The position numbers and the translations under genes are program-made. The notes beneath the pieces were generated by a model. The model searched no databases. It saw only the letters and a list, made by a program, of their open reading frames with translations, and was not told where the DNA came from. A DNA stretch of 47,343 nucleotides from Prolixibacteraceae bacterium (GTDB taxonomy: Bacteria > Bacteroidota > Bacteroidia > Bacteroidales > Prolixibacteraceae): the NCBI GenBank assembly GCA_029975525.1, contig JARKOX010000117.1:1-47343 (forward strand). The letters run 5' to 3'. Of the stretch, positions 27,340 through 36,021 are shown piece by piece. Positions within the stretch are counted from its first letter, which is position 1. Each line of letters begins with the position of its first letter.

Positions 27340-28692
27340 ATGGCAACTGTAAAAAAAACATATCATCCAGCGGAGGATGAAAGCATTGAGTGGCTATTCA
27401 ACACCGAAATCATTCATAGTGAAAAACTGCGTGCCACAATCCTTACAGGCATTTTAGGATTAGAAGCAATGCTCCTTATGATTATCTACTTTTTCTATCG
27501 CGATCAGTACCTTTTGCTATTTACCACCCACATTGCCATTCACGCAATTCTCATTTTCACCTTAATCATTATTATTTATGAGTTGCTGGTTCTCTATCTC
27601 ATAGGTAGAAAAACCCAATTTTTTCTGGTTCACAGGGATATCCTAAATTTCTTCAACGGATTTGCTGAAATTACTCTCCTTTCCATTTTATTTGTTTTAA
27701 TAATTGAGTACTCCGGTCAGCCTGCAATCCTCCAAGCCCCGGCGACCCTAACTTATTTTGTCCTCATCGTACTTTCCACGTTGAGGCTCAATTTTAAACT
27801 TTCAATTTTTTCCGGAGCATTAGCAGCTACAGAATATGTAGCTATTTCACTTTATTATTCCACACATTTCAGGAATATTCCCGCAGACCATTTTTATCCA
27901 GACCTAACGGGTATGCAGTACCTTGGACAGGGAGTTATCTTGCTGATTTCGGGTATTTCTGCAGGATTTGTAGCCGACCTGATTAGAAAAAACATACGAG
28001 TTTCAAGACAAAATATTAAAGAAAAAAATGACATAATCGATTTATTTGGGCAACAAATCTCTCCTCAGATTGTGAATAGTATTCTTGAAAAAAGAGATGA
28101 ACTTTCGGGTGTCCGGAAAAAGGTTTGTGTCATGTTTCTCGACATCCGTAATTTCACGCCTTTTGTCGAAACACATACTCCGGAGGAAGTTGTTGCTTAC
28201 CTGAACAAACTTTTTCACTTTATGATTACTATCATTCAGATGTACGATGGTGTAATCAACCAGTTTTTGGGCGACGGATTCATGGCCACCTTTGGCGCTC
28301 CGGTTTCAAAAGGGAATATTTCACAAAAGGCCGTTCTGGCCTCGAAGGAGATCATCAAGATCGTCAAACAGCAAAACAGAGCAGGAAGTATTCCTAAAAC
28401 GCGCATTGGCATAGGCCTCCACTATGGGGAGGCGGTCATTGGGAATATCGGTTCTTCGTTACGAAAACAATATTCAATCACCGGCAACGTAGTTATAATG
28501 GCGTCACGCATTGAGCAACTCAACAAATTATTTGACTCACAACTCATCATTTCAGAAGAAGTTTTTAACGAACTTGAAGCGGGAGCAAAAGGAGGGTTTA
28601 TGCGTAAAGAGACATTGGAAGTTAAAGGAATTAACCGACCTTTTTCTCTTTACATTTTTCAAGAAAATAAAACTCAAAAAAAAGAACCATGA
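27340..28692 (+). CDS. Membrane-bound class III nucleotide cyclase
   Basis: A 450-residue inner-membrane protein. Residues about 30-215 hold six hydrophobic segments, followed by a short linker helix and a cytoplasmic class III cyclase domain (about 255-435). The domain has VCVMFLDIRNFTPFVETHTPEEVVAYLN with the metal Asp at 268, INQFLGDGFMATFG with the second metal Asp at 312, and IGIGLHYGEAVIGNIGS. Specificity residues are unusual: Gln308 where adenylyl cyclases have Lys, and Y-S-I-T-G-N-V-V-I-M-A-S-R (378-390) where they have GDTVN-x-A-A-R, so the usual Asp is Asn383 and the transition-state Asn is Ile386; Arg390 remains. The product nucleotide is therefore open. The stop overlaps the next ATG by four bases (ATGA), giving tight coupling to an HD-PycTM protein. 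Confidence 0.88.
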   Translation: MATVKKTYHPAEDESIEWLFNTEIIHSEKLRATILTGILGLEAMLLMIIYFFYRDQYLLLFTTHIAIHAILIFTLIIIIYELLVLYLIGRKTQFFLVHRDILNFFNGFAEITLLSILFVLIIEYSGQPAILQAPATLTYFVLIVLSTLRLNFKLSIFSGALAATEYVAISLYYSTHFRNIPADHFYPDLTGMQYLGQGVILLISGISAGFVADLIRKNIRVSRQNIKEKNDIIDLFGQQISPQIVNSILEKRDELSGVRKKVCVMFLDIRNFTPFVETHTPEEVVAYLNKLFHFMITIIQMYDGVINQFLGDGFMATFGAPVSKGNISQKAVLASKEIIKIVKQQNRAGSIPKTRIGIGLHYGEAVIGNIGSSLRKQYSITGNVVIMASRIEQLNKLFDSQLIISEEVFNELEAGAKGGFMRKETLEVKGINRPFSLYIFQENKTQKKEP

Positions 28693-29837
28693 AAATTGAT
28701 GAAACGATTATCAGGAAGACCGAAGAATTTGTGTCGGATATGTTAAAAAACGAAACTCCAAAGGGGTATACTTATCATACCCTGGCACACACCCTTGAAG
28801 TAGTTGAAAATTCCATTTTCATCGGAAAGAGAGAAAACCTGTCTGATGAAGAGATGGGGGTTTTATGCATTGCTGCATGGTTTCACGATATCGGCTATAC
28901 CAAAAAATACATTGGCCATGAAGTGGAAAGTGCATCAATGGCTGAGCAGTTTCTGAAAGACCTGGGGGTCGGCAATAATGTAAAGACCGAAGTGAAGGAA
29001 AGTATTCTTGCCACCACCTTCCCTCAGATGCCCAAAAGCAAGATTGCAAAGGTATTATGCGACGCAGATTTTATGCACCTGGGCCAGGAAAATTATTTCG
29101 ATCTGTCGGAACAACTCAGACAGGAATTAAAAAACACAGGCATTAAAAAACTAAAAAAAGCTGAGTTTGACAGATACTCTATCAAACTTTTCGAAGAACA
29201 CGTTTATTTTACTGCATACTGCAAGGAAGTTGTCTCCGAAGGGAAGGCTAAAAATCTGGATCTGCTGAAAAAAAGAGCGGCAATAAAAGAAATCGGCACA
29301 AAACAAAAAAAATCAACAAGATACTCCCGGGGTGTCGATTCCATGTTCAAACTTACAGCCCGAAACCAGATTAATCTGAGCCAGATTGCCGACAACAAAT
29401 CCAATATCCTCATTTCACTCAACAGTATTATCATTTCACTTGCCTTAGCCACATTGGTCAGCAAATTCAAACAAGAACCAGCCATAATAGCGCCCAGTGT
29501 AATTTTTATCTTTTTCAGTTTGCTAACTATTGTGCTGGCAATCCTTTCCACCCGCCCCAATATCTCTTCCGGGAAATTCAGTCTGAAGGAGGTAAAACAG
29601 CAAAAGATAAATCTTCTCTTTTTTGGCAATTTCTATAATATGCAGTCGGAAGAATATGAACAGGCTATTAAAGAAATGATCAACGACGATTTCTATTTGT
29701 ATTCTACCCTAACAAAAGACCAGTACTCACTGGGGAAAGTATTAGCAAAAAAATACCATTGGCTCCGCTGGGCTTATAATGTGTTTATGATCGGGTTAGT
29801 AGTTTCGGTAAGCACCTTTTTGTTTGTACTTATCTGA
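28689..29837 (+). CDS. HD phosphohydrolase fused to PycTM-like effector domain
   Basis: A 382-residue two-part protein. The N-terminal HD domain has YHTLAHTLEVV (His30, His34), AAWFHDIGYTKKYIGHEVES with the His66-Asp67 pair, and LCDADFMHLG with Asp125/127, a complete metal phosphohydrolase set able to cut cyclic nucleotides or related substrates. From about residue 215 comes a domain with RNQINLSQIADNKSNILISLNSIIISLALATLV, a second membrane segment near 264-285, and a third at 362-382. This matches the DUF5706/PycTM domain known as the membrane effector of Pycsar anti-phage systems. It overlaps the cyclase gene by four bases. A cyclase plus PycTM pair is the core of Pycsar; the added HD domain and the membrane cyclase differ from the described form. 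Family match is from memory. Confidence 0.82.
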   Translation: MKIDETIIRKTEEFVSDMLKNETPKGYTYHTLAHTLEVVENSIFIGKRENLSDEEMGVLCIAAWFHDIGYTKKYIGHEVESASMAEQFLKDLGVGNNVKTEVKESILATTFPQMPKSKIAKVLCDADFMHLGQENYFDLSEQLRQELKNTGIKKLKKAEFDRYSIKLFEEHVYFTAYCKEVVSEGKAKNLDLLKKRAAIKEIGTKQKKSTRYSRGVDSMFKLTARNQINLSQIADNKSNILISLNSIIISLALATLVSKFKQEPAIIAPSVIFIFFSLLTIVLAILSTRPNISSGKFSLKEVKQQKINLLFFGNFYNMQSEEYEQAIKEMINDDFYLYSTLTKDQYSLGKVLAKKYHWLRWAYNVFMIGLVVSVSTFLFVLI

Positions 29838-29910: not shown

Positions 29911-31791
29911 ATGAAGACAACAAAAAGTAGAGAACATGCTCTGTCTCATATTGACAACATTATCAGCAAGGCCAAACGTCTGGAAGATAAATATCATAAA
30001 CTCATTTCAGAAGTGGATCCCCTGTATCGTGAAAGTGCACTGAACCTTTTGCACTATCTCGCCCTCCGGAGCTTTGACACAGGTGGGGTACAGCAATGGC
30101 TCAGGTACAAAGGAATGCCTGACCTTGTCAATATCGAAGGTCATGTAATGAAAAACCTGCTCGTAACCAGGGCTATTATCTCTACTCCTGCCCAAAAAGA
30201 AGATTCCGCACTACAAAAAAAATATGTCAATAAAAAAAAGAGCGAGAAACTGTTGGGCAGGAATACCAGAAGCTTGTTAGGGAACAGACCGAATAACAGA
30301 AGTACCCGTATCATGGTTACTTTATCGTCGAAGGTAGCCCAGGATTACAAAATCGCCAGCCAACTGATGAGAAAAGGAATGAACAGCGTCCGTATCAACT
30401 GTGCCCACGACAATGAGCAGATATGGGAGCAGATGATCAGGAATGTGCAAAAGGCAAGTGAAGCTGCCAACAGGAAGTGTACAATTATAATGGATCTTGG
30501 AGGTCCAAAATTGCGAACAGGTCCTATGCAGCCAGGACCACAGGTAGTGTTTATTGAACCCCGCCGCAATCTGCTGGGAGCAGTAGAACGGCCAGCACGT
30601 GTTTGGATAGCGCCTCCGGGCATACCGCCACCCGGAAATATTGCCGATGCTGTTATTCCGGTGAGCGAATCGTTTATTCAAAAAATAAAAAGGAAAAACA
30701 TTTTGTGGTTTACCGATTCGCGCGGAAAAAAAAGACAGATTACCATCGAACGAAAACAGGGAAAAGGCAGGTGGGGATTGTGTAGTGATTCGGCTTACAT
30801 TACCACCGGCACCGAACTGGTACTGAACAAGATCAAAGAGAGCGGAAAAGAAAAAAACTACGTAGGCGAACTGATGCCTGCCGAGCAAGTTATTGTCCTG
30901 CGCATTGGCGACAGGTTATTACTTCAAAGCCAACAGCTGCCGGGCGAACCAGCCAAATACGACTCTCAGGGAAACCTTACCAGTCCGGCACATATTTCCT
31001 GCACCATGCCCGAAATATTTCAGGATATTAAAGCTGGCGAGCCTGTTTTCATCAACGACGGGAAAATAGAAGGAATTGTTGAAAGCGCAATAAAGGAAGA
31101 GATAGTAGTATTAATCACCAATGCAGGCAAATCAGGCAGTAAATTGAGGGCCGGCAAAGGCATTAACTTTCCGAAGTCTAAATTAAAAATCAGGGGATTA
31201 ACCGAAAAAGACCAGGAAGATCTTGCTTTTGTAGCTCAACATGCCCATGTGGTCAGCCTCTCGTTTGTAAATCAGGCCAGTGACGTAAAAGAGTTACAAA
31301 TTGAACTGGAAAAATATCCGGTCAAGCCGGGAATAATTCTGAAAATTGAAACCCAAAAAGGATTCGAGAACCTTCCGGAAATTCTGTTACAGGCCATGCA
31401 AACCTACCCGGTAGGTATAATGATTGCCCGCGGTGACCTGGCTATTGAAACCGGATGGGAAAATTTTGCCACTATCCAGGAAGAGATTCTTCGGATTGGT
31501 AAAGCAGCCCATGTTCCTGTTATTTGGGCAACCCAGGTATTGGAAGTCCTGGCGAAAGAAGGAACCCCCACCCGATCGGAAATTACCGATGCCTTTCTGT
31601 CTCAAAGGGCTGAATGTGTGATGCTGAATAAAGGTATTTACATTGAAAAAGCAGTAAGCACATTGAATAAAATCCTGATTAAAACAGAAAACCATCAGAA
31701 AAAAAAGCAAGAGATGCTGTCCAAACTGAAAAGTGACGAAGGACTGAGCCTCCAGCTTTCGGATTTTCAAGATCATCAACCCGTAACCTGA
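29911..31791 (+). CDS. Long pyruvate-kinase-like protein
   Basis: A 626-residue protein with a pyruvate kinase barrel but an unusual build. Residues 1-130 are an N-terminal domain with SALNLLHYLALRSFDTGGVQQWL, a mark of the long pyruvate-kinase-like family. The core has STRIMVTLSSKVAQDYKIASQLMRKGMNSVRINCAHD near 130, MDLGGPKLRTG near 194 (DTKGPEIRTG in true kinases), a large insertion in place of the B domain, ILKIETQKGFENLPEI with the catalytic Lys near 478, MIARGDLAIETGW near 504 and ATQVLEVLAKEGTPTRSEITDAF near 540. The C-terminal allosteric domain is missing; the protein ends soon after VMLNKGIYIEKAV. It may phosphorylate or dephosphorylate something other than ADP/pyruvate. It lies 73 bases after the HD-PycTM gene and 10 before the next, so it is in the operon. 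Confidence 0.85.
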   Translation: MKTTKSREHALSHIDNIISKAKRLEDKYHKLISEVDPLYRESALNLLHYLALRSFDTGGVQQWLRYKGMPDLVNIEGHVMKNLLVTRAIISTPAQKEDSALQKKYVNKKKSEKLLGRNTRSLLGNRPNNRSTRIMVTLSSKVAQDYKIASQLMRKGMNSVRINCAHDNEQIWEQMIRNVQKASEAANRKCTIIMDLGGPKLRTGPMQPGPQVVFIEPRRNLLGAVERPARVWIAPPGIPPPGNIADAVIPVSESFIQKIKRKNILWFTDSRGKKRQITIERKQGKGRWGLCSDSAYITTGTELVLNKIKESGKEKNYVGELMPAEQVIVLRIGDRLLLQSQQLPGEPAKYDSQGNLTSPAHISCTMPEIFQDIKAGEPVFINDGKIEGIVESAIKEEIVVLITNAGKSGSKLRAGKGINFPKSKLKIRGLTEKDQEDLAFVAQHAHVVSLSFVNQASDVKELQIELEKYPVKPGIILKIETQKGFENLPEILLQAMQTYPVGIMIARGDLAIETGWENFATIQEEILRIGKAAHVPVIWATQVLEVLAKEGTPTRSEITDAFLSQRAECVMLNKGIYIEKAVSTLNKILIKTENHQKKKQEMLSKLKSDEGLSLQLSDFQDHQPVT

Positions 31792-31801
31792 TTCCGGAAG
31801 T

Positions 31802-34800
31802 ATGCCAAAAAACCTAAAATACATTTGCATCCTCCTGGGGATAGCTATATCCGTATTTTCCCAGGGAAGCCTGGCGCATGCACAAGCGAAGGGGAGTTAC
31901 ACAGTTTTGATTACTGGAAATATTTATGGAAAAACGTCAAATTCTGCCTGGTCCCAAAAATGGCAGAATGAGACAACCGAACCAGAAAATTTTGCTTATT
32001 TGTTGGCCGGCAATGTGGTGGATGGCAAAACCGGCACCTTTCCTGAGAACCTGACAACCAATGAAAGCAAACCCGTTTTGATTGTTCCGGGGAAGGCTGA
32101 ATGGGCAAACGGGAGCCGAAAGGGGAAAGATTTCATTAAACAACTACCGTCAAATTTCTCTGAAAAGTTTAAAAACCCCGTTCATTTTATCGATGATGCT
32201 TGTCCGGGCCCAGAAGAAATTATTCTGACAGACTATCTGGTTGTGATCTTGATCGACACTTACTGGTGGGTTCACAAATTCGACAGGCGCTTCAGTAAAT
32301 GTGGCATTGAAACTCCTGCTGATATACTCATGCAGACAGAAGATATTATCCGAAGGCATTATAACGACAAACACATAATTGTAGCTGGTCACCATTCCTT
32401 GAGGAGCCAGGGGAATACAAGCGGACACTTCTCATCCAGGCAGTGGTTACTGAAGGCGCCCTATACCTTCTTCCGGAAACTGCCCGGCTCAAGACGTGAC
32501 AACCAGCATCCCGACTTTAAGGAGTTTCGCAAAGGGCTGCTATCCTTATTGAAAAAATACCCAGAACTGGTTTACGCCTCCGCCGGGGAAGCCAACCTCC
32601 AATATTTTCCTTATCATCAGACTCATTTTGTCATCTCCGGTTCCTGGCAAGACAGGGAGTATGTCCGTAAAAAACAACTTGCTTTCGGTTCAGATGAAAA
32701 CGGTTACGCCAGACTGGACTTCTCTTCCAGCGGAGAATGTTCCCTTTCCTTCGTCAGCAAAGAATCGGTCCTGTTCAAAAAAACAATTTATCACAAAAAG
32801 CTGGCTGCGGTAACTCCTGGAATTACGTTGTCCGGAGAACTACCGGACAGCATTATGGCAGTTGCAAGCTATCGCTACAGTATTACTGGACGTGGATATA
32901 AATGGTTGGGGAAAAACTATCGCAATATTTGGGAAACCCCGGTAAAAGTACCAGTGTTTAACCTAGGTGAGGAAAATGGAGGTTTGCATATTCTAAAACG
33001 TGGCGGCGGGCAACAAACCTATTCTTTAAGAATGGAAGACAACAAGGGAAAGCAATATGTTTTACGTTCCATTGACAAGCAGGTGGAAGGAGCCATGCCT
33101 AATGCCCTGCTAAACACCTTTGCTGTGGATCTGGTACAGGACCAGGTCTCGGCTTCCAATCCTTATGCAGCCCCGGTGGTAGCTGCACTTGCCGGATACT
33201 CCGGTATCGTTCATGTTAATCCCCGGGTGGTTTATGTTCACGATGATCCCCGTCTGGGGATTTACCAAAGAGATGTGGCCGGGCGCCTCTTCATTTTTGA
33301 AGAACGCCCCGATGGAGAGTGCAGTCACATGACCACTTTGGGAAGACCTCAAAATATCATCTCCACAGAAAAAGTGATAGAAAAAATTACTTACTCACCA
33401 TATCATTACGTAGATGTTGGCGCAGTACTGCGTGCCCGGTTATTCGATATTGTGATCAACGATTGGGACCGCCACGATGACCAGTGGCGCTGGGCCGGGT
33501 TCAGCCATAACCGAGAAACGGCCTATACTCCTATTCCACGCGACCGTGACCAGGCATTTTTTGTAAATAACGGTATCCTGCCCTGGATAGCTTCTCGTAA
33601 ATGGCTGTTACCAAAAATACAAGGCTTTACTGAGTTTACCCAAAACATGGAGGGACAATCATTCAATGCCCGCTTCTTCGACCGGACTTTTCTCTCCTCT
33701 GCCAACTGGGATGATTGGCTCCGCCAGACCGACTCATTAAAAACCCGGCTTACCCCCTCCAAAATCGATTCGGCCATGTATCTTTTCCCGAAAGAGATCT
33801 ATCCTTTATGTGGCCCGGAAACCAAACGCATAATGATGGAAAGAATTAAAAACCTGGAGCCAATGGCCCGAAAACTTTACCTTTCTCTTGCAAAGGAGGT
33901 AAGTGTTGCCGGTACCAGAGAACCCGATTTTTTCGAAATAAAAAGCTCTGACGATACAACAGTCACCATTTCAGTATACCACCTCAATAAAGACGGTGAA
34001 AAGGGACGGCTCTTTTTTCACCGTCAATTTTTTGCTTCAGAAACCCGAATGATTCTCCTTTATGGACTGGAGGGAGAAGATATTTTTGAACTGACCGGTA
34101 ACAGGATCGGCAAAATTGCAATAACTATTATCGGCGGAAAGGGAAGAGACAAAATAAAAGCAAAAGAAAAATTTTACATGGACAATATCGTAATTTACGA
34201 TGATATTGACACGGAGGTAGCTCCGGAAATTAGAAAAAAACTGAAAAGCCGTTACGATCAACATGCTTTAGAATATAACCGGGAAAACTTCAAATATGAT
34301 ATTATTTATCCAGGTATTTATTCCGGATACACCCCAGATGACGGAATATTCCTGGGAGGCGGTCCAATTTTCACCAAATATTCACGTTACCAGCAACAAC
34401 GCTACGAAATGATGGGAAATTATGCATCTGCCACCAACGCTTATAACCTTCGGTTCAAAGTACAAAAAAATTATCCGCTCAAACGCATGCTCCTTGACTT
34501 TAATGTTGATTACAGTTCTCCAGGGTATGTTGGCAATTTTGTGGGGATGGGAAACGTAACCCGCTGGGATCCTTCGAAACCGGAAGGATACTACAGGCTG
34601 CGAATGAGCCGTTCAGTACTGCGGACCGGCTTTGTCAGATGGCTGGATCCTAACCAGCTCCATCAAGCCGGAGTCAGTCTTTCTTTTAACCATACCGGTA
34701 CAGAGAAAACAAAAGGGCGATATGTTTCCCTTCCGGGGAACGGGTTGGATGAGAATGACCTGTCCTCTCATTTTTATACAGGTATTCACTTAAACTACAA

Positions 34801-35371
34801 ATTCGACACCTCGAATAGAACGGACAGGAAACCTGAAGAAAAATTTGCAGGGAGCAGCTCTTTTCCCACACGGGGCATGAAGCTGGAAACGGCTGCAAAT
34901 TATTTTACAGGGATAAATAAACATACCGGAAATTTTTTAAAAGTTTCTGCCGACTGGATGACCTATTTGAGTTTTTCGCAACGCCCCCGCGTCATTTATG
35001 TTCTTCGGCTGGGAGGAGAAAAAATTGTCGGTAATTATCCTTTTCATGAAGCAGCCAAATTAGGCGGTAAAGAAAATCTTAAAGGCTACCGTGAAACCCG
35101 GTATTACGGCGATGCCTCAATTTATCTGAATGCTCTGATGCGGATCAGGATGAAGCAGTTTCAAACCTATTTGGTGAATGGTACAGCCGGTGTCTTGTTT
35201 TTCAATGATACCGGCCGGGTTTGGCTGAAAGGTGAAGAATCCAAACGATGGCACAATGGTGCTGGCCTGGGTCTTTGGATTTCGCCTTTTGACACAGCAG
35301 TTTTAAGTGCATCATTATCCTCTGGAAACGATGGCAAGCTTTTCAACTTTTCTCTAAATTATCATTTTTAA
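31802..35371 (+). CDS. Degenerate phosphoesterase/kinase-like/OM barrel protein
   Basis: A 1189-residue exported protein with a signal peptide ending near LAHAQ. Residues about 33-330 align with calcineurin-type phosphoesterases, but metal motifs are eroded: LITGNIYG near 35, VPGKAEW near 95 instead of GNHDW, AGHHSL near 195, and SAGEANLQYF near 260 instead of GHDHNLQ. Residues about 385-740 look like an atypical kinase: YSLRMEDNKGKQYVLRSIDK near 405, IFEERPDGE near 499, IVINDWDRHDDQWRW near 550 and IPRDRDQAFF near 577, comparable with the DRH/DFG segments of Fam20C- or HipA-like folds (inference). From about 835 to the end is a BamA/TamA-type surface-antigen barrel: AAKLGGKENLKGYRETRYYGD near 1083, ending NFSLNYHF. 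It is probably an outer-membrane protein with a periplasmic part. The stop lies two bases before the histidine phosphatase gene. Confidence 0.75.
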   Translation: MPKNLKYICILLGIAISVFSQGSLAHAQAKGSYTVLITGNIYGKTSNSAWSQKWQNETTEPENFAYLLAGNVVDGKTGTFPENLTTNESKPVLIVPGKAEWANGSRKGKDFIKQLPSNFSEKFKNPVHFIDDACPGPEEIILTDYLVVILIDTYWWVHKFDRRFSKCGIETPADILMQTEDIIRRHYNDKHIIVAGHHSLRSQGNTSGHFSSRQWLLKAPYTFFRKLPGSRRDNQHPDFKEFRKGLLSLLKKYPELVYASAGEANLQYFPYHQTHFVISGSWQDREYVRKKQLAFGSDENGYARLDFSSSGECSLSFVSKESVLFKKTIYHKKLAAVTPGITLSGELPDSIMAVASYRYSITGRGYKWLGKNYRNIWETPVKVPVFNLGEENGGLHILKRGGGQQTYSLRMEDNKGKQYVLRSIDKQVEGAMPNALLNTFAVDLVQDQVSASNPYAAPVVAALAGYSGIVHVNPRVVYVHDDPRLGIYQRDVAGRLFIFEERPDGECSHMTTLGRPQNIISTEKVIEKITYSPYHYVDVGAVLRARLFDIVINDWDRHDDQWRWAGFSHNRETAYTPIPRDRDQAFFVNNGILPWIASRKWLLPKIQGFTEFTQNMEGQSFNARFFDRTFLSSANWDDWLRQTDSLKTRLTPSKIDSAMYLFPKEIYPLCGPETKRIMMERIKNLEPMARKLYLSLAKEVSVAGTREPDFFEIKSSDDTTVTISVYHLNKDGEKGRLFFHRQFFASETRMILLYGLEGEDIFELTGNRIGKIAITIIGGKGRDKIKAKEKFYMDNIVIYDDIDTEVAPEIRKKLKSRYDQHALEYNRENFKYDIIYPGIYSGYTPDDGIFLGGGPIFTKYSRYQQQRYEMMGNYASATNAYNLRFKVQKNYPLKRMLLDFNVDYSSPGYVGNFVGMGNVTRWDPSKPEGYYRLRMSRSVLRTGFVRWLDPNQLHQAGVSLSFNHTGTEKTKGRYVSLPGNGLDENDLSSHFYTGIHLNYKFDTSNRTDRKPEEKFAGSSSFPTRGMKLETAANYFTGINKHTGNFLKVSADWMTYLSFSQRPRVIYVLRLGGEKIVGNYPFHEAAKLGGKENLKGYRETRYYGDASIYLNALMRIRMKQFQTYLVNGTAGVLFFNDTGRVWLKGEESKRWHNGAGLGLWISPFDTAVLSASLSSGNDGKLFNFSLNYHF

Positions 35372-35373
35372 AA

Positions 35374-36021
35374 ATGCTGAAGTACTGTATTTCATTGCTA
35401 TTTATTGTTGGCCTGCCCGACTTGGTTTCGTCTGCTGTTCCGAAAATCTTCCTGATCAGGCATGCCGAAGTTAATCTGGGAAAACCCGGATGGGGTACTA
35501 CCCGAGATGCTGCACAATACAAAAAAGAATATAACTTTGCCCCGGTTAAACGGTTCGCCCCTGATAAAATATTGAAGAAAATTGATGATTTCGAACTAAT
35601 CGACACAATATTTTGCAGTCCGCAATCAAGGGCAACCGAAACAACAAAATCAATTTTCAGTGACCGGATCACGCTCCTGACAGATAGCGCACTCGCTGAA
35701 TTTGATTACCCGGTAATTAGATTTCCTGTTTTGCAACTTCCTGTAAAAACATGGCTTCTGCTTTCGCGTGCGAGTTGGTCACTCAACCTGAACAACAGGG
35801 AGGGAGCCTTTTATAAACAACGCAAAGAAGAGCTAGAGGTATTCTCACATAACCTGGTGCGTTTTGCAAACCATCATGGCATGGTAGTGGTGGTAGCCCA
35901 CGGAATGGTAAACCGGGAGCTGATTAAAATATTGAAAAAAAATGGATGGAGATTGTGTAGTCCCGGCTATGCCTGTTATGAAAACTTGTCGGTAAATTGC
36001 TTGAAAAAAGAATTAAATTAA
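35374..36021 (+). CDS. Exported histidine phosphatase-family protein
   Basis: A 215-residue member of the phosphoglycerate-mutase-like histidine phosphatase superfamily with a signal peptide (LFIVGLPDLVSSAVP). The phospho-accepting His is in IFLIRHAEVNLGKPGW near residue 26 (RHA instead of RHG). CSPQSRATETTKSIF near 87 and VVVVAHGMVNRELIK near 169 give the second Arg and His. It should act in the periplasm on a phosphate ester or phosphoprotein. It is the fifth gene of the cyclase operon, starting two bases after the barrel protein stop, which suggests that the two work on the same envelope substrate (inference). Confidence 0.82.
   Translation: MLKYCISLLFIVGLPDLVSSAVPKIFLIRHAEVNLGKPGWGTTRDAAQYKKEYNFAPVKRFAPDKILKKIDDFELIDTIFCSPQSRATETTKSIFSDRITLLTDSALAEFDYPVIRFPVLQLPVKTWLLLSRASWSLNLNNREGAFYKQRKEELEVFSHNLVRFANHHGMVVVVAHGMVNRELIKILKKNGWRLCSPGYACYENLSVNCLKKELN

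Follow-up and report, generated by a model that had tools for sequence, protein, structure and literature searches.

The gene at 31802..35371 (forward strand, as are all features below) encodes an exported protein of 1189 aa in which a purple-acid-phosphatase (PAP)-like domain, a kinase-like domain, an all-beta linker and an Omp85 barrel follow one another, as assigned from sequence, Pfam/NCBIfam, homologues and a full-length model. We consider it probable that the barrel anchors a kinase-fold enzyme domain which is exported to the outer membrane and was ancestrally paired with a phosphatase. The window, the whole stretch of DNA analysed, comprises 47,343 nt of contig JARKOX010000117.1 (GCA_029975525.1, positions 1 to 47,343 of the forward strand) from a Prolixibacteraceae bacterium. 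The open reading frame is intact with an ATG start, and carries the motifs quoted in the original prediction: GKAEW (residues 97–101), GEAN (262–265), DWDRHDDQW (554–562) and PRDRDQAFF (579–587). It begins 10 bases downstream of a pyruvate-kinase-like gene (29911–31791), and a histidine-phosphatase gene (35374–36021) starts 2 bases past its end, hence it is probably part of an operon. Full-length homologues with 38–62% identity were found in 14 of the 61 genomes near that of the window, and the middle domain, used as query against genome contigs, found 581 confirmed relatives (80 kept, L020–L099), which argues against a chance observation.

Pfam and NCBIfam scans returned the barrel as their sole match, leaving residues 1–870 without annotation. 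The AF2 model of the full-length protein (pLDDT 88, pTM 0.80) and VIA comparison bore out the predicted barrel, which has 16 strands (residues ~834–1189, 34301..35368), matches Pfam Omp85 PF01103 (1.4e-7, residues 873–1172) and NCBIfam Omp85_fam (1.2e-20), and scores a VIA Z of ~24 against SAM50, BamA and TamA. Ahead of it lies an all-beta linker domain (residues ~699–799, 33896..34198, from DSSP of the full-length model) which is not POTRA-like: POTRA is absent before the barrel, and residues 699–799 of the model hold no beta-alpha-alpha-beta-beta unit. At the N-terminus, a signal peptide is predicted from the sequence (residues 1–28, ending in AHAQ, 31802..31885), and a hydrophobic stretch in this position, taken as an export signal, recurs in 102 of 105 members of the family. 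Such a signal makes a location of the kinase-like domain outside the cytoplasm very likely; by analogy with Omp85 topology it would most likely be on the periplasmic side.

The middle region had been proposed to be kinase-like from two of its motifs, and structure prediction and fold search gave it kinase topology, with matches including CotH, HipA and Fam20C. The AF2 model of this region (residues ~350–697, 32849..33892), for which an alignment of 70 homologues was the input, is confident (pLDDT 92.5, pTM 0.91), shows the two-lobed topology of the protein-kinase-like (PKL) superfamily and places both motifs in the predicted catalytic and metal-aspartate loops. In Foldseek searches of the PDB the best matches were CtkA (8.0e-6) and CotH (4.8e-5), followed by Rio2, HipT and HipA, and VIA gave Z scores of 15.1 for PI4K-II-beta, 15.0 for CotH (256 residues), 14.0 for CtkA, 11.4 for HipA and 10.8 for Fam20C. 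A sequence profile of the wider set also placed CtkA at the top of the PDB (E 0.014), with DRHDDQW aligned ungapped over CtkA DRHNGNW, and PRDRD shifted by one residue against CtkA IFDCG. The profile of 14 close relatives gave only chance matches in the PDB (HDAC6 and quinol oxidase), and no family was found for the middle region in Pfam/NCBIfam. PF08757 (CotH) had zero matches at E 10 across 14 members, and the curated PF07804 (HipA) model had none among 14 members. Hhalign comparisons with an alignment of 20 CotH proteins and with a HipA alignment scored no higher than unrelated controls, the query being shallow (Neff 3.2). Structural and sequence evidence agree on a kinase fold; sequence by itself is not convincing.

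With CotH and Fam20C the domain shares the PKL fold, a similar catalytic-to-DFG spacing and a non-cytosolic setting, but it differs from them in having no Pfam match and no CotH profile-profile signal, in its arginine at the beta3 position and in its fusion to a barrel. CtkA and HipA-type kinases, of which CtkA is best by both Foldseek and sequence profile and has the DRHxxxW motif in common with the window protein, are barrel-less, and whole-family sequence similarity to them is marginal. Type II PI4-kinases, among the top VIA matches, have the motif DRGNDNW where DRHDDQW is found here; they are however eukaryotic lipid kinases whose sequence homology with this domain is not detectable.

The putative active site is built from four short segments. 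GGGQQT (residues 401–406, 33002..33019) is a conserved glycine-rich loop between putative beta1 and beta2, with GGG 401–403 in the beta1–beta2 turn of the model according to DSSP. RSIDK (422–426, 33065..33079), assigned from conservation, has R422 at the position of the beta3 lysine and the near-invariant K426 four residues on; arginine occupies the former position in nearly all members and aligns with lysine in a divergent Parabacteroides homologue. The putative catalytic loop DWDRHDDQW (33461..33487) has D556 as catalytic aspartate and Q561 at a metal position, with DRHDDQW coming after a helix (539–552) in the model, and PRDRDQAFF (33536..33562), whose PRDRD comes after a strand (572–579), is the putative DFG-equivalent with D581 (or D583) as metal-binding aspartate, both being assigned from conservation and the CtkA alignment. 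Topology, the distance between the residues and the profile alignment with CtkA, where D581 is off by one, put D556 and D581 in the expected loops. They are 25 residues apart; D228 and D251 of CotH, aspartates whose loss abolishes its activity, are 23 apart (PMC7821199).

These positions are well conserved. In the pattern-found set D556, R422, K426, D447 and GGG are invariant (81/81), although none of them was contained in the search patterns. In the profile-found set, 87 rows which include the most divergent homologues fetched, D556 is kept in 73/84 readable rows, D581 in 75/84, K426 in 78/81 and the glycine-loop GG in ~90%, the exceptions being mainly far homologues and Hymenobacter copies. 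The putative catalytic aspartates are retained in ~90% of profile-found members, while the loss of D556 or D581 in some divergent members indicates that part of the family is non-catalytic.

A rather unlikely alternative is that the whole domain is a pseudokinase, a ligand- or partner-binding or scaffold module which signals conformationally to the barrel without catalysis. It would explain the arginine in place of the beta3 lysine and the replacement of D556 by N, S or E in divergent members, and the neighbouring PAP domain on the same chain is itself now non-catalytic. The chief objection to an enzyme, and the reason why this alternative keeps an appreciable share of our judgement, is the lack of a known ATP source in the periplasm: this compartment is not known to contain ATP, so the domain would sit, oddly, where ATP is normally absent. 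This donor problem and the beta3 arginine both weaken the enzyme reading. A pseudokinase does not, however, readily account for the retention of D556, D581, Q561, K426 and the glycine-loop GG in ~90% of the profile-found homologues throughout the phylum, nor for the invariance of D556, R422, K426 and D447 throughout the pattern-found set.

The N-terminal domain tells a different part of the history. Residues ~29–334 (31886..32803) form a degenerate PAP-like domain, with a VIA Z of 25.9 to 7ov2 in the full-length model (256 aligned, rmsd 3.0); its intact relatives match PF00149, which falls below detection in the window protein although the fold is that of a PAP. The motifs of the intact relatives (GD.G, GDN.YP, GNHDW, HHP and GHEH) follow the purple-acid-phosphatase pattern, whereas the window protein departs from the PAP metal-ligand motifs GDxG, GDxxY, GNHD/E, VxxH and GHxH, reading GN, GN, GKAEW, HHS and GEAN. 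Comparison with relatives sets GKAEW (32090..32104) against their GNHDW and GEAN (32585..32596) against their GHEH. The original prediction of a dead phosphoesterase is well supported by the PAP fold and the loss of nearly all metal ligands, but its statement that every metal motif had degraded goes too far, as the fourth (GHHS, residues 196–199) is kept. GAP50 (3tgh) is a PAP fold serving as an anchor without catalysis and also resembles this domain (VIA Z 24.8), differing in being a eukaryotic membrane-complex anchor of unrelated architecture.

On a tree built from the kinase-plus-barrel columns, 38 members have an intact PAP domain, 21 a degenerate one and 12 none, with at least seven changes of state; in the window's clade it is degenerate in every member that could be scored. 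Mean identity of the kinase-like domain exceeds that of the PAP domain in clades with a dead PAP (60% vs 40%, 71% vs 57% and 73% vs 49%), and the contrast is smaller in clades with an intact one (64 vs 58, 62 vs 51 and 59 vs 47%). The kinase-like domain is hence under the strongest constraint. Along the tree the phosphatase half has repeatedly disappeared or become inactive, whereas the kinase-like half persisted.

The PAP-plus-barrel plan itself has been known since 2014. The passages of Heinz and Lithgow (2014, PMC4104836) on the 'Metallo' subfamily of Omp85 proteins describe a calcineurin-like PF00149 domain, there taken for a metalloprotease, joined to an Omp85 barrel without POTRA, and make no mention of a kinase-like domain. 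Relatives of the window protein with an intact PAP domain follow this plan, and the full-length Ekhidna lutea relative L036 matches both the PF00149 and Omp85 models. The window protein differs in that its PF00149 domain is degenerate and that its conserved core lies between PF00149 and the barrel. Only the kinase-like module can therefore be new, and the original prediction that a kinase tied to a barrel would be novel holds for that module, which appears new, but not for the architecture. In the open-access, as distinct from subscription, literature searched, a kinase-like domain in Metallo-type proteins is undescribed; the main text of KINtaro mentions neither Bacteroidota nor the outer membrane, and its list of 72 families sits in the supplement, where the family may already be listed. 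Two named proteins were ruled out as identities: the metallophosphoesterase virulence protein of R. anatipestifer, which is a 68-kDa type IX effector, and OMP76, an unrelated TonB-receptor-like protein.

The kinase-like domain was present in 113 of 296 sampled Bacteroidota genomes, with a PAP half that is intact, degenerate as in the window protein, or missing. Three architectures recur: PAP–kinase–barrel proteins of ~1200 aa, kinase–barrel proteins of ~860 aa (Pontibacter, Mucilaginibacter), and kinase-like lipoproteins without a barrel (Hymenobacter and others). Four further proteins (L132–L135) are 423 aa long, with intact catalytic motifs and a single N-terminal, probably inner-membrane, anchor. 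In two genomes (L139 2841–6793 and L140 5129–9094) a kinase-like lipoprotein, a PAP lipoprotein with intact motifs (PF00149, 1.6e-6) and an Omp85 barrel (Omp85, 2e-11) are encoded by three adjacent genes, which supports a functional belonging-together of the three parts. In Parabacteroides distasonis the active site of a kinase–barrel homologue (L130 5872–8328) has degenerated (DWNKTNENW, VIDRN), and its beta3 position holds lysine. Adjoining barrel-less paralogues occur in Hymenobacter-like loci (L137 4436–7775 and L138 4129–9148), one with DWSRRE (D556 to Ser) next to copies with DWDRH; these are possibly pairs of pseudokinase and kinase, recalling Fam20A/Fam20C.

The variety of anchors bears on a further alternative, a type Vd-like autotransporter in which the Omp85 barrel would put both soluble domains, PAP and kinase-like, on the cell surface, as has been proposed for PlpD and its patatin domain. 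This option has been put forward for the Metallo subfamily, in the passages of PMC4104836 devoted to it, and it suits enzyme-like domains placed N-terminal to an Omp85 barrel, as in PlpD (type Vd); PlpD, however, carries a patatin domain and POTRA, neither of which is found here. We regard it as improbable, as POTRA is missing, the same kinase-like domain is used on inner-membrane anchors (L132–L135) and in barrel-less lipoproteins, which makes barrel-mediated export unnecessary for its use, and no acidic run directly follows the lipobox cysteine in lipobox members. Least probable is an outer-membrane assembly factor like BamA or TamA, whose soluble domains merely regulate substrate access: the barrel does belong to the Omp85 insertase superfamily, but it has no POTRA, the kinase-like domain surpasses it in conservation, and a family found in 113 of 296 genomes is not a core assembly factor.

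As a barrel-anchored enzyme, the protein would work as follows. The phosphate donor, a nucleotide or some other compound, would be bound in the N-lobe of the kinase-like domain through the GGG loop and R422/K426. With D556 as catalytic base and metal coordinated by Q561 and D581, the domain would then pass phosphoryl or nucleotidyl groups to a protein, lipid or glycan of the envelope close to the barrel. The ancestral protein would have carried both writer and eraser on one chain, its working PAP domain taking the modification off again; in the window's lineage the eraser may have taken on a structural or binding role, like GAP50, whose PAP fold is inactive. More tentatively, the family may represent phylum-wide outer-membrane-anchored extracytoplasmic kinases, ancestrally fused to an opposing phosphatase, which phosphorylate or nucleotidylate envelope components of Bacteroidota.

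The kinase-like domain gives an identity to the middle region of 'Metallo' Omp85 proteins, which had no annotation; the half often taken as their defining enzyme, the phosphatase, is the one that was repeatedly lost or inactivated. Phosphorylation is known for exported Bacteroidota proteins, among them the gingipains of P. gingivalis, and the kinase behind it is still to be found (reviewed in PMC10202324); an exported kinase-fold family spread across the phylum offers a testable candidate class for phosphorylation of this type. It also poses the question of which phosphate donor would be used in the periplasm.

Genes around the family suggest, though no more than suggest, a theme of phosphate and nucleotide chemistry, and there is no universal partner. 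At 42 of 74 loci an HD-PycTM gene lies in the fetched flank, its arrangement having changed at least eight times; an adenylate-cyclase-like gene is found at 27 loci, polyphosphate kinase at 13, and at 12 the next gene downstream encodes a histidine phosphatase. A beta-propeller lipoprotein (SdiA-regulated, PF06977) is immediately upstream in 29 loci (among L030–L099); its frame runs up to, or into, the start of the family gene, and it was not seen in the window's clade. The pyruvate-kinase-like gene at 29911–31791 is of the PRK14725 type, and such a gene is near the family gene in 7 loci. A defence role for the protein at 31802–35371 was dropped, as it had no PADLOC match. Further upstream in the window, at 27340–29837, an adenylate/guanylate-cyclase-like gene (PADLOC PycC, 1e-25) overlaps an HD and PycTM gene (PycTM, 5.7e-19) by 4 bases, and from these matches the two are assigned as a Pycsar-like pair. 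The proximity of HD-PycTM to the kinase–barrel gene in so many loci implies that it may have a housekeeping, and not purely defensive, role.
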